From positions 1 through 25,134 of IMG/VR virus record IMGVR_UViG_3300042301_000115: a stretch of 25,134 nt of DNA. One strand, given 5' to 3'. Position 1 is the stretch's first letter, and each line of letters begins with the position of its first letter. Below the pieces are notes generated by a model. That model did no database searches, had not been told where the DNA came from, and saw only the letters and a program-made list of their open reading frames with translations. This stretch comes from a virus. Below are positions 13,513 to 21,297 of this stretch, one piece after another. Both the position numbers and the translations under genes were made by a program.

Positions 13513-13694
13513 TTTTTCAGTTTTAATAGTTCTTTTGAATATTCAGCTAAATCATTTCTAAGTATTTCGTTTTCGTGTTTTAGCTTCTTGTTTTCCTTTT
13601 CTATTTTGCAATACATTCCGTAAAACTCTTTTGATCGTTCTTTACGTCTTTCAAGTTCCGCCTCCACTAATTCAAGTATATTTCTAAACATCAT
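13509..13694 (-). CDS. Short coiled-coil protein
   Basis: A 61-aa, almost entirely charged protein (ELVEAELERRKERSKEFYGM then a Lys/Glu/Leu heptad run to the end). It looks like one continuous alpha-helical coiled coil with no cysteines in the helix except one near the middle. It overlaps the sigma-like gene end by 4 nt and the next start by 4 nt, consistent with coupled translation. No family is recognised; a dimerising accessory protein is likely. Confidence 0.5.
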   Translation of the reverse strand: MMFRNILELVEAELERRKERSKEFYGMYCKIEKENKKLKHENEILRNDLAEYSKELLKLKK

Positions 13695-14230
13695 ATCAAT
13701 TCAAAATCCTCATTTATGTAATCTTGCCAATCTTCTCCGATTGCTTCGTTTATTTTAGTCTTGCAATTGTTTATAGTTCTCCAAACAGAACTGTGATCAA
13801 TGCCAACTTCTGCTTCAATTTTACGCATACTGAATCCGGAATTTCTATAAAGAATAAATAATTGGCGGTCATATTCCTCCCAGTTTTGCATTTCAGCTTT
13901 TATTTTTAGTTCAATGCGTTCTAATGCTTGCAATCTTTGCGTGTTTTCGTGCGTTTTAACAACGTTTTTCACTACTTCATATGGTATTAACTGCAAAGAT
14001 TCTTTTTTGTTGATTGTGAAGAACATATTGCGAAGCGTTACCCACATCAAAGCTCGGTTAATTTCTCCGTTTTCAAAGTATTTTTGCGGATCTCCAATCT
14101 TCATTAGCTTAATATAGCACTCTTGAACTATATCCTCTGGATGATCAGTACCGAATAAACGAACAATGGCCACCCATTCTTTGTGATGAGCGGCCAGTGC
14201 AGTAATCCAGTTGTTCTTATTTATTTCCAA
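13691..14230 (-). CDS. Sigma-factor-like transcription regulator
   Basis: A 179-aa protein resembling small phage RNA polymerase sigma factors. A region-2-like segment (HPEDIVQECYIKLMK, about 30-44) is followed by helices. A C-terminal region-4-like helix-turn-helix comes later: YDRQLFILYRNSGFSMRKIE, then a GIDHSSVWRTINNCKTKI recognition helix (about 143-160). The start is TTG at 14230, because in that frame a TGA lies three codons upstream and no ATG is near. It stands at the head of the block leading to the terminase and tail genes, so it may direct late transcription. It could instead be a DNA-binding activator without polymerase contact. Confidence 0.65.
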   Translation of the reverse strand: MEINKNNWITALAAHHKEWVAIVRLFGTDHPEDIVQECYIKLMKIGDPQKYFENGEINRALMWVTLRNMFFTINKKESLQLIPYEVVKNVVKTHENTQRLQALERIELKIKAEMQNWEEYDRQLFILYRNSGFSMRKIEAEVGIDHSSVWRTINNCKTKINEAIGEDWQDYINEDFELI

Positions 14231-18612: not shown

Positions 18613-19446
18613 TTATAATCCACAATATCCCGAATCGCAATCTGTAAAATCTTCATCAAACAAATCTAATTGCAATTTATGGTTTTTAATCTTTTCATAA
18701 GTAACTCCTTTTTTAAATGTGCTTCCGTGTTTTTGTTCCATACTTATAAACCAATCAAATTGCTTTTGATCTCTTTGGCTCATATACTTTAAAAATATCT
18801 CAGAGCGATGAAAGCAACCAACGCAATTATTTTTGTAGGAAAATCTAACGAATTTATCTTTCCAGTAGTTCTCAATGGTATCTTTAAATATTCCGTCTTC
18901 AATTAGTGGAAATCTTGCAGATCTGTATGGCAGTTCTTTCCATTTATTACGCCCGTTCTTTTCTCCAACCTTAAACTTAAAACTTTCAATGCCGTCAACT
19001 GCTCTTTCAATCATTGTTTTAGCTCTGATCATTTCATTAGCTCTAAATCCTATTCTCATTTCTACGGGTAATTCCGTATTATCATAGCACCATTGAGCAA
19101 TAGGTTTAACTTTCATATCTACTGTGCAATATCTTGTCATTAAATTTGGTAAGTATCCAGAACGTTTTTCAATAATATCTTCAAATGTTTTATCTGAAAG
19201 CCAAATAATTTCTTGGCCTATATACTGCTCTAAATCAAGCATTGTGTAAATGATAGTATCCTCTTCAAGTGTACCTATAAATTCGTGTCCTATTCTATCG
19301 CTTACAATTTGACGAATTTTAGCATCTGGAAAAAGAACGTTTTTGTCATTTGTACGAACTAAAGAAAAGATATTATAATCAGCGGGATAATTTGCAGCTA
19401 TGTAGCTTGATGTTTTACCACCGCTTAGCGAGTTTACTGTTTTCAT
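18613..19446 (-). CDS. PAPS-reductase-like PP-loop protein
   Basis: A 277-aa protein with the PP-loop SGGKTS (8-13) of the adenine nucleotide alpha-hydrolase fold and a RYCTVDMKVKP motif characteristic of the PAPS reductase family. A CVGCFHRSEIF segment with two Cys and a terminal DCDSGYCGL follow. The classical enzyme reduces phosphoadenylylsulfate. Phage relatives of this family have unclear roles, and the Cys pairs could bind a metal or cluster. A sulfur-transfer or nucleotide-modifying activity is possible but not shown. The ATG overlaps the stop of the helicase gene by one base. Confidence 0.75.
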   Translation of the reverse strand: MKTVNSLSGGKTSSYIAANYPADYNIFSLVRTNDKNVLFPDAKIRQIVSDRIGHEFIGTLEEDTIIYTMLDLEQYIGQEIIWLSDKTFEDIIEKRSGYLPNLMTRYCTVDMKVKPIAQWCYDNTELPVEMRIGFRANEMIRAKTMIERAVDGIESFKFKVGEKNGRNKWKELPYRSARFPLIEDGIFKDTIENYWKDKFVRFSYKNNCVGCFHRSEIFLKYMSQRDQKQFDWFISMEQKHGSTFKKGVTYEKIKNHKLQLDLFDEDFTDCDSGYCGL

Positions 19447-20333
19447 TAGAAAGGTGTTTTTAGTTGTACCGGTGGCTTTACTCTGAAATTCTTTAACGGA
19501 TCAACCGCATTAATTTCAAAGCCAATTCCGGAGTTAAAATTACAAATAATAGGTTCATTCAATAACGTATGCTTTCCTCCCGTTTCCGTATCCTTGACTT
19601 TTTCTACGTTAATCCAAGTTGAATATTTCCACTCTGGATGCTTAATTAATCTGTGAATAACAAACATATCATCGCATCGGTTTAGGAACGCTTTACCGCC
19701 CTCAATGTGATCCTTTAAAGGCGGCTTTAAATGTCCTTTCCAATCTCCGTCTTGATATAAGTTTGCATTACGACCGGATTCCGTATTAGGATGCGTGTTT
19801 ATGTAGATAGTTTTACCTGTGCTATTTACAAACTGGCGAGCAGCGTTCATAAAGTTATAATTACCCTCAAAGCTCATCTGCCTATCAAGTCCAGTAAATG
19901 GATCAATCAGACAAACATCCGCCTCTGATTCTACAAATAAATCAAATAACTGCTCCGGTTTATAAAGTCTTGAATTGTCAATGAATGTGAAAAACTGCTC
20001 AAGGTAGGCTGTATGTCTGTGGATCTCATCGTAACTTAATTGTCTGAATGGCTTTCCGGAATACATCTGCACCATATCTCTGAGTATTTGCCCCTTTTGG
20101 TTTTCTCCAGACCATAAGCAGAATGTTAATCCGTGTTGTAATGCGAGGTTTAAAAAGTACCAGTTGATCCAATAGGTTTTTCCTACGTTGTCGTGGCCTA
20201 AAATAATATTTACTTGCTTTGGTTTAAACTTTAAATGCTCATCCAAAAAGCAACCGATTCCTAAACCTTGTTTAATATTTCCATCTTTGTAATCCAGTAA
20301 ATACTGAATAGCATCACCCTTGTTTTTTAGCAT
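19446..20333 (-). CDS. DnaB/RecA-like replicative ATPase
   Basis: A 295-aa RecA-fold ATPase. The Walker A motif is GHDNVGKT (46-53) and a Walker B-like DVCLIDPFTG lies at 139-148. TIYINTHPNTESGR in the middle fits the sensor or catalytic loop of DnaB/RecA-like ATPases, and the late segment (KHPEWKYSTWINVEKVKD) fits a DnaB C-terminal domain. It lacks an N-terminal primase-interaction domain. It overlaps the replication-initiator-like gene by 20 nt, so it is probably the phage's replicative helicase or a RepA-like ATPase. Confidence 0.75.
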   Translation of the reverse strand: MLKNKGDAIQYLLDYKDGNIKQGLGIGCFLDEHLKFKPKQVNIILGHDNVGKTYWINWYFLNLALQHGLTFCLWSGENQKGQILRDMVQMYSGKPFRQLSYDEIHRHTAYLEQFFTFIDNSRLYKPEQLFDLFVESEADVCLIDPFTGLDRQMSFEGNYNFMNAARQFVNSTGKTIYINTHPNTESGRNANLYQDGDWKGHLKPPLKDHIEGGKAFLNRCDDMFVIHRLIKHPEWKYSTWINVEKVKDTETGGKHTLLNEPIICNFNSGIGFEINAVDPLKNFRVKPPVQLKTPF

Positions 20334-20889
20334 ATTTTCTTAGTATTTGTAATTCCTTAGGCTCGGAATCATCGCTAAAATTACCAAACTTATTTTTATT
20401 CTTGTCCCAGTTTAATAATCTTCTTTCAATACCAAATGCCTTTTCCTTTTCAAATCTCATCTTGCGATCATTCTCTGCGTGCTCAGTCCAATACAGATAA
20501 AAATCATTAAGCATTTGCTTTCCGTAAGTATCTAAATAAGGTTTAAGTGATGCAGCAAACTTCTGTTTGCGTTCTTCTATATTATATTCTTTTACTTTCT
20601 CTTTCTCTTTTACTTGTACCAAAGGGCCTTTAATACCCCCTTGCTTACCCCCTTGCGTAGGGGCTTGTAAAGGTGTTTTAGTTTTATCCTCAAAACCTTT
20701 TACTTGAGCATCAATCGAATGCTTTTGACTTATATAAGCAAACTTCGCCATACCAGTTAATTCTGGCTCAGCTCCGGTAAACTGCCTCATCATTAATGCA
20801 TCATAAAATGCAAGGCGATCCTTGTCATTTAACTCCATTGCTACCTCCCAATAGCTTCGATAAAATTTTACTGCTTTTCTTTCACTCAT
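20314..20889 (-). CDS. Replication-initiator-like protein (DUF6291-type N-terminus)
   Basis: A 191-aa protein with an N-terminal domain, RKAVKFYRSYWEVAMELNDK then FYDALMMRQFTGAEPELTG, like DUF6291 proteins. A Gly/Gln/Pro linker (about 74-92) and a C-terminal helical domain follow (FYLYWTEHAENDRKMRFEKE, AFGIERRLLNWDKN). In Bacteroidota phages such proteins precede a helicase, as here, and could load it onto the origin. The start is 12 nt downstream of the U-run of a terminator hairpin, which suggests expression by read-through. Origin position is not seen. Confidence 0.65.
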   Translation of the reverse strand: MSERKAVKFYRSYWEVAMELNDKDRLAFYDALMMRQFTGAEPELTGMAKFAYISQKHSIDAQVKGFEDKTKTPLQAPTQGGKQGGIKGPLVQVKEKEKVKEYNIEERKQKFAASLKPYLDTYGKQMLNDFYLYWTEHAENDRKMRFEKEKAFGIERRLLNWDKNKNKFGNFSDDSEPKELQILRKYAKKQG

Positions 20890-20900
20890 CTTACTGCCTT

Positions 20901-20954
20901 AAAATAAAAAACCCCTTTCAGTTTTCACGAGGCAGCGCTACTAACCGAAAAGGG
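20901..20954 (-). terminator. Rho-independent terminator in the replication operon leader
   Basis: On the minus strand a 12-bp stem (arms 20943-20954 and 20912-20923, with two G:U wobbles) encloses a 19-nt loop and is followed by a U-rich run (20901-20911). It lies between a promoter and the replication-initiator-like gene, so it could attenuate that operon or end a small RNA. Confidence 0.75.
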
Positions 20955-20987
20955 CTTCAATAATGTTTTATGCGGGTCTGCCTACCC
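20901..20987 (-). ncRNA. Candidate structured leader or small RNA
   Basis: From a start predicted near 20987 to the terminator U-run, the transcript would be about 85-90 nt. It would carry a first hairpin GGGU-AGGCAG-ACCC (20974-20987) and the terminator hairpin. The first loop (AGGCAG) is complementary to CUGCCU in the terminator loop (20930-20935). The two could pair as a kissing loop or compete with termination. No ORF is seen. Function is inferred from structure only. Confidence 0.45.
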
Positions 20988-20992
20988 AATGA

Positions 20993-21000
20993 CAAATATA
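20993..21000 (-). promoter_or_regulatory. Bacteroidota-type -7 box TATATTTG (promoter)
   Basis: TATATTTG lies a few bases after the stop of the preceding gene. A TTTTTG lies 23 nt upstream, a little farther than the usual spacing. It precedes the structured leader and terminator and the replication block. Confidence 0.6.
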
Positions 21001-21006
21001 ATAATT

Positions 21007-21297
21007 TTATTCCAATAACTTGTCAAAAACAAAGTTTTCTTTTACCCACTGGCGAAATGCTCTTTGGATATCTACTTGCTGATTCATAGCATCGCTAACT
21101 GCTGAGTCAATGATCAACCTATCCGTTTTTCTGATCTCATCCAGAAACATATTTGCTTTACGCTTGATGTTATGTTTGAAGATATTTGAATCATTCAGAT
21201 CTTCAATATAATCTCCTAAGACCGGAAGTATTGCAGTTAATACTATTAGCTTTTCTAAGTTGCGTTTTACTGCTTCTGTGTACTGTTCTTGTTCCAT
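21007..21297 (-). CDS. Small hypothetical early protein
   Basis: A 96-aa helical, charged protein beginning MEQEQYTEAVKRNLEKLIVL. One hydrophobic stretch (LTAILPVLGDYI) lies near the N-terminus but is short. It is the last gene of the early block before the promoter of the replication operon. No family is recognised. Confidence 0.5.
   Translation of the reverse strand: MEQEQYTEAVKRNLEKLIVLTAILPVLGDYIEDLNDSNIFKHNIKRKANMFLDEIRKTDRLIIDSAVSDAMNQQVDIQRAFRQWVKENFVFDKLLE

Follow-up and report, generated by a model that had tools for sequence, protein, structure and literature searches.

A putative leader RNA with covarying complementary loops ahead of replication genes in phages of Bacteroidota

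Described RNA controls and the layout of the locus

Kissing loops with a fully paired contact of 6-7 nt are known from ColE1 RNA I/RNA II and from TAR/TAR*, and the packaging RNA of phi29, likewise small, exposes two loops that are complementary and vary together in sequence from phage to phage. The c4 antisense RNAs of phages P1 and P7 are located upstream in their operon and pair, by short, separated stretches, with their own transcript near the start site. Satellite phage P4 has an immunity system that silences the prophage in lysogens through a separate, processed CI RNA acting in trans. As far as the accessible text of PMC4825925 describes it, premature termination keeps the P4 replication genes off, the partners of the CI RNA are seqA on its upstream side and seqC on its downstream side, and the control is presented as antisense-driven termination.

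The window analysed here, a stretch of 25,134 nt of viral DNA, contains a putative leader RNA with a loop A near its 5′ end, a complementary loop B at the tip of a terminator and a third, C, in the start-codon region of the first gene. The closest known design appears to be the P4 seqA-seqB(CI RNA)-seqC control of replication genes. As in P4, the leader RNA lies before phage replication genes (the window genes here; 72 of the 153 first genes found behind leaders fall in one replication-protein cluster), and B, like seqB, is complementary to an upstream element (A/seqA) and, in the window clade, to a downstream one (C/seqC). Unlike the P4 system as the accessible text presents it, it is the loop of an intrinsic terminator that carries B, the complementarity is one of 6-10 nt between hairpin loops, most leaders have A:B only and lack C, the C element overlaps a start-codon hairpin, and the carriers include phages reported as only lytic (accessible text of PMC7077304). 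Like the c4 RNAs, the leader is an upstream phage RNA in the same operon with pairing near the start site; it differs from them in host phylum, in having no Rfam match and in pairing loop to loop. The phi29 packaging RNA differs from the leader in genomic place, number per genome, terminator and C, and unlike ColE1 and TAR/TAR* both leader loops lie in one transcript.

By analogy, the leader may work like the P4 system, while kinship with P4 is without Rfam support. Searches of Rfam 15 with the window returned no match at the gathering threshold, and none up to E 5 on 20800-21100; the leaders of eight related loci gave none up to E 0.5. At these thresholds descent from P4/c4-type RNAs is not supported by a match to any described RNA family. 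A transcript-level account of these leaders was likewise not found in the literature searched, which included the accessible text of PMC4825925, PMC12197685 and PMC7077304, with subscription journals and preprints outside its scope. As far as found, the leader system is new, with neither an Rfam family nor a published account.

The leader is encoded on the minus strand, between the stop of the upstream gene (21007) and the ATG of the DUF6291 gene (20889), the latter 11 nt past the U-run (Table 1). A preliminary description had reported a promoter box, a hairpin and a terminator with a U-run ahead of a replication operon, and all of these elements were found. The box conforms to TAnnTTTG, which we take to be the Bacteroidota -7 motif. 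ERF and NinG genes are located farther along behind the leader operon, and a phosphoadenosine phosphosulfate reductase-like gene (18613-19446) and, more weakly, a sigma-factor-like gene (13691-14230) lie farther on along the same strand. The first protein had no match in PDB or NCBIfam, and tblastn against plasmids gave no match to it.

Table 1. Coordinates of the elements and genes at the window locus
Feature	Coordinates	Strand	Basis or remark
TTGACA, -33/-35-like hexamer	21021..21026	-	Inside 3′ end of upstream gene; absent from some relatives
TATATTTG, Bacteroidota-type -7 promoter box	20993..21000	-	Sequence match
5′ hairpin A, GGGU[AGGCAG]ACCC	20974..20987	-	Sequence, fold; loop A 20978-20983; covaries with B
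AU-rich linker	20959..20973	-	Alignments: AAA..ATTATT part kept in relatives though unpaired
Intrinsic terminator hairpin	20908..20958	-	Stem 20943-20958/20908-20923; fold; helices covary
Terminator internal loop AGUA/GAA	20939-20942/20924-20926	-	Fold
Terminator mini-stem	20936-20938/20927-20929	-	Fold
Loop B, CUGCCU	20930..20935	-	Complementary to A and C; fold, comparison
Terminator U-run	20901..20911	-	Sequence
Hairpin C, read-through RNA	20885..20908	-	Loop AGGCAG 20894-20899; fold; B:C covariation
First gene, DUF6291 protein	20314..20889	-	phrog_19415; some relatives annotated as replication protein
Second gene, primase/helicase-like ATPase	19446..20333	-	phrog_239, phrog_19
Upstream gene, no assigned function	21007..21297	-	TTGACA hexamer inside its 3′ end

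Folding of the leader (MFE -27.8 kcal/mol, z -2.24) returned exactly hairpin A and the terminator hairpin, the latter with a stem of 16 pairs, both 6-nt loops being open and fully complementary. The perfect match of loop A to CUGCCU that had been claimed is exact (20983-20978 against 20935-20930). CUGCCU had been placed within a 19-nt loop and is present there, but it is really the sole content of the 6-nt loop of a mini-hairpin, GCG[CUGCCU]CGU, at the terminator tip, below which the AGUA/GAA internal loop is presumably loop-E-like. The two-element layout of the preliminary description had also overlooked loop C: folding of the read-through RNA adds a third hairpin (20908-20885) in which AGGCAG (20899-20894) is again a 6-nt hairpin loop, 4 nt ahead of the ATG, on a 9-bp A/U-rich stem that includes the start codon and takes the U-run of the terminator as its 5′ arm.

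Taken by itself, the window sequence is weak evidence for designed A:B pairing. When the 5′ region was dinucleotide-shuffled, an A:B match of at least 6 nt arose in 8% of cases (P 0.08), so that the earlier estimate of a few tenths of a percent applies to random letters alone. AGGCAG has 12 matches in the window against 8.2 expected, three of which are A, B (as the complement) and C.

Nested folding of the window, a method that leaves kissing and pseudoknot folds aside, produced separate hairpins only. A classical attenuator or riboswitch with mutually exclusive hairpins is not supported, as no alternative antiterminator fold was found by this method; from the earlier suggestion of an attenuator worked by loop pairing, the terminated leader before replication genes fits. 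A leader peptide was rejected, an ORF being readable by eye in some relatives and not in most.

Loop pairing across related leaders

A protein search with the first gene yielded 80 loci, and the leaders found there share the layout of the window. Their A/B/C letters form the sets AGGCAG/CUGCCU/AGGCAG, AUGCAG/CUGCAU/AUGCAG, GUGCAG/CUGCAC/GUGCAG, AAGCAG/CUGCUU/AAGCAG and GAGCAG/CUGCUC/GAGCAG, and more distant leaders have A:B pairs of 7-10 nt and other sequence. A detector found a leader within 1500 nt at 46 of the 76 protein loci examined and none within that distance at the other 30, among which are at least three missed leaders of the window clade (L008, L009, L013), whose A:B contains one G-U and falls below the detector limit. 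The promoter box is also present in the leaders reached via proteins, where the detector required TAnnTTTG; in the type-2 alignment described below TATATTTG is unvarying, but is itself part of the search pattern. A scan with an exact 14-mer, GGGTAGGCAGACCC, was set aside: it gave 45 stretches, mostly by chance, with a few true clade members (such as L087, L100, L115 and L124).

Viral contigs were scanned with two patterns, each made of the promoter box and the flanks of the terminator tip (type 1, GAGTAG..CGAAA; type 2, TGAA..GGATTT plus four further tip letters) and each giving at least 120 rows; an A:B match was not a criterion. Among the matches listed, type 1 comprised 83 unique ones, 52 of which run into a terminator, and type 2 comprised 54, with 44 running into one. 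Every terminator-bearing leader among these matches had a perfect A:B of at least 6 nt (52/52 type 1 and 44/44 type 2, 96/96 together), against 12 of the 41 listed matches without a terminator (6/31 type 1, 6/10 type 2). When loops were swapped between unlike type-2 leaders, a pairing of at least 8 nt occurred in 0 of 902 pairs, compared with 50 of 54 true pairs among the matches listed. The same control was less clean for type 1, with at least 7 nt in 108 of 5850 swapped pairs and in 45 of 83 true ones, again among the matches listed.

Across 145 unique leaders, A starts a median of 10 nt past the box, the base of the terminator comes 24 nt after A, and B lies 21 nt beyond the terminator base, giving an RNA of about 91 nt if transcription is assumed to start 5 nt after the box. 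Loop A falls within a 5′ hairpin in 113 of these leaders by MFE folding, the remaining 32 having no hairpin there, and 59 distinct A strings occur among the 145. No correlation between spacing and stem length, considered as a sign of cis pairing, was detected (Spearman -0.12, p 0.14). Additional copies of the loops in the phage contigs were not enriched (A, 17 against 20.3 expected; B, 10 against 17.5; 117 leaders). A small RNA with many phage targets is not supported on this basis; a terminated leader fits the trans-acting small RNA proposed earlier, whose only evident partners are A and, in the window clade, C.

Three alignments were scored for covariation, counting both-side cells against shuffled alignments. 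The type-2 alignment (A1) holds 29 sequences from 30 candidates, L262 being left out; the whole structure was 94.4% paired with 169 both-side cells against 46.4 shuffled, and A:B alone 91.4% paired with 41 against 12.5, both sets of figures being weakened by three of the 29 rows (the GAGTCTCA class) that are out of register. The type-1 alignment (A3), consisting of the window and 28 of 46 deduplicated type-1 leaders (29 sequences; L002, a near-copy of the window, is filed under 'other' in the deduplicated set), was 88.7% paired with 172 both-side cells against 45.6. In the window clade (A2, 19 sequences), A:B was 100% paired with 15 both-side cells against 3.8, and B:C 97.4% paired with 14 against 3.4. 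Coarser measures (pairs with both-side change, further pair types) were not above shuffles for window-clade A:B and B:C or for type-2 A:B. Diversifying selection on the loops, which immunity typing would lead one to expect, was not seen, A:B in type 2 varying no more than the other leader helices.

A check of loop complementarity in related phages had been proposed, and the complementarity was found to be conserved with compensatory changes. Taken together, the comparative data put A:B pairing far beyond chance, the pairing letters differing between phages but shifting in step. Comparison at the level of sequence across many phages shows a promoter-like box, an A element, a terminator tip presenting B and compensatory conservation of A:B; by the same kind of evidence, the letters of the predicted loop C, located at the start codon in the window clade, vary in concert with those of A and B.

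At least six changes of the A/B/C variant were counted on a tree built from 15 genes downstream (85 codons). Part of these changes is exchange of the leader as a block, because L012 has the upstream DNA of L004 and the leader of L011. The mosaic joint in L012 is at the leader: the DNA before it, promoter included, is of L004 type, and the leader itself of L011 type.

Loop C, carriers and the genes behind the leaders

Loop C is limited to 19 of 152 unique leaders and one further leader found by model R2 in record G012 (L399, GGTGCAG/CTGCACC/GGTGCAG). The count follows a 5-nt rule that 23 rows pass, four of them matches inside genes, with a control rate of 3.7%. The stem closing C has at least 5 bp in 17 of the 19 leaders and 7-9 bp in 15.

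Cultured carriers, reached via the replication protein or via the pattern, are Flavobacterium phages 11b, elemoA and elemoD, Croceibacter P2559S, Cellulophaga phi19:3 and phi13:2 (two leaders each), Olleya Harreka_1 and five Moomin phages. No leader was detected in Riemerella CRP5, nor around the replication protein in LoVEphage, MD05 and MT839942. In 84,980 species genomes the type-2 pattern gave five matches, none of them a real leader. The authors of the Moomin phages report no lysogeny genes and an only lytic life (accessible text of PMC7077304); the annotations of phi19:3 and phi13:2 include a tyrosine recombinase and a repressor, and therefore the carriers are not all virulent.

The term 'replication operon' proved too narrow, as leaders also occur ahead of HNH endonuclease, methylase and KilA-N genes. 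Ten proteins were scanned, eight of them other first genes and two replication proteins of leader-bearing phages; they include DUF6291, NUMOD4-HNH, N6/N4 methylase with helicase or ParB, Prim-Pol/DUF3987, KilA-N, DUF559 and an HTH protein.

Two or three leaders that differ in A:B are found on several contigs. This orthogonality is indistinguishable from chance: one of 15 same-contig pairs shares A, in that case the same leader counted twice, and random leader pairs share A in 6.4%. All five Moomin phages, from two genera and two hosts, have one identical A:B. The second leader of phi19:3 (L369:23509) and of phi13:2 (L370:23461), with A = CCTTCAC, is identical and followed by different downstream sequences, which suggests that the leader moves as a unit. 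A second leader with A = GTTACGG is found repeatedly, on L070, L128, L158, L174, L220 and L264; on L220 the gene behind it encodes a NUMOD4-HNH endonuclease, which hints that this endonuclease travels with its own leader.

The AAA..ATTATT stretch of the unpaired linker is common to both leader types and resembles what we take to be an RNase E-type site (window 20959-20973 and relatives); one gene of Croceibacter P2559S is annotated RNase E. A below-threshold Rfam match to Plastid-ycf2 (43 of 65.7 bits) at L432:1866-1940, antisense to a phage tRNA-Met, suggests an overlap of this family with a tRNA antisense strand.

Proposed mechanism and alternatives

Judged from the comparisons, the leader is very probably a real RNA switch that occurs in numerous viruses of Bacteroidota bacteria. 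The reading that we favour, with a probability of about 0.5, is that loop-loop pairing in a conserved leader RNA of these phages controls the downstream operon, as an RNA-only negative feedback. Most transcripts would end at the terminator, giving an RNA of about 80-95 nt, and a minority would read through and express the DNA-metabolism genes. Loop B would be the active loop: it would kiss A at the 5′ end and, in the window clade, also C in the read-through mRNA, where the AUG lies within the C hairpin. Contact of B with A would favour or stabilise the terminated RNA, contact of B with C would block the start of translation, and, as the short RNA accumulated with template number, the output of the operon would fall. 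The target of B may be its own transcript, other transcripts, or both. Three points favour negative feedback: the same leader holds the only evident partners of B, the genes that follow the leader are ones whose expression should track template number, and a start-codon hairpin that repeats the loop of A offers a direct translational target. A broader proposal is less likely than not: that the terminated RNA of about 90 nt, with its self-complementary loops, acts as a dosage sensor within and between transcripts and throttles the replication genes both of its own phage and of co-infecting phages that match it in loop type, the start codon providing a second lock in the window clade, and that such RNA-only systems are widespread in Bacteroidota phages, reportedly only lytic ones among them, P4 immunity being one case of a broader, independently arisen strategy.

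Kissing leaves the terminator stem intact, and therefore A:B could be purely structural. A leader that acts in cis only, with A:B as an intramolecular kissing contact whose letters drift freely while they remain matched, is nearly as likely as the feedback reading; the contact would shape or protect the terminated RNA, or provide a platform on which RNA polymerase, an RNase or an antiterminator protein of the phage (put/nut-like) could act. The per-pair variability of A:B in type 2, no greater than that of other leader helices, is consistent with this, as are the fixed spacing, the conservation of the unpaired linker AAA..ATTATT as if something bound it, the resemblance of the internal loops AGUA/GAA or UGAA/GGAU to a protein or structural motif, the absence of other loop targets in phage contigs and the private A:B pair of each leader on multi-leader contigs. 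What a cis-only contact by itself leaves unexplained is loop C, the repeat of A at the start codon that covaries with B, although competition of A and C for B in cis would account for it. The same modest variability of A:B argues against the terminated RNA being an RNA-encoded superinfection exclusion that silences replication genes in a co-infecting phage of identical A:B type, in the way that CI RNA acts for P4. The A-B-C logic, as in P4 (accessible text of PMC4825925), and the many distinct A strings noted above would suit such a function, but the five Moomin phages share one A:B and would therefore exclude each other, and the sharing of A by same-contig pairs (1/15, against 6.4% of random pairs) contains no orthogonality signal; we consider exclusion improbable.

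In having two loops that are complementary and covary, this small RNA also recalls the phi29 packaging RNA, with A and B pairing between molecules to build a ring or dimer. This is very improbable for leaders that precede replication and DNA-metabolism genes, not packaging genes, that occur several to a contig with different pairs, and whose linker, roughly estimated, has the length needed for intramolecular pairing. The reading as an ordinary terminator with a coincidental hexamer match, to which the shuffle P of 0.08 lent some weight for the window alone, is refuted by the comparative data, namely the A:B pair of all 96 terminator-bearing leaders among the matches listed and the covariation in type 1, type 2 and the window clade.

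Little is known about how Bacteroidota phages, whose hosts are major bacteria of gut, soil and aquatic habitats, time and limit their replication. At least six groups of cultured phages carry the leader ahead of replication operons, and it provides a compact handle that can be tested in the laboratory, as it contains two or three loops of hexamer to decamer size whose pairing can be disrupted and then re-established. Action of the RNA in trans would extend P4-type RNA control beyond a single satellite group to a large number of phages; with action in cis, the leaders would constitute a new kissing-loop class. In cis or trans alike, the loop code, with its 59 A strings in 145 leaders, may yield ready-made matched RNA parts.
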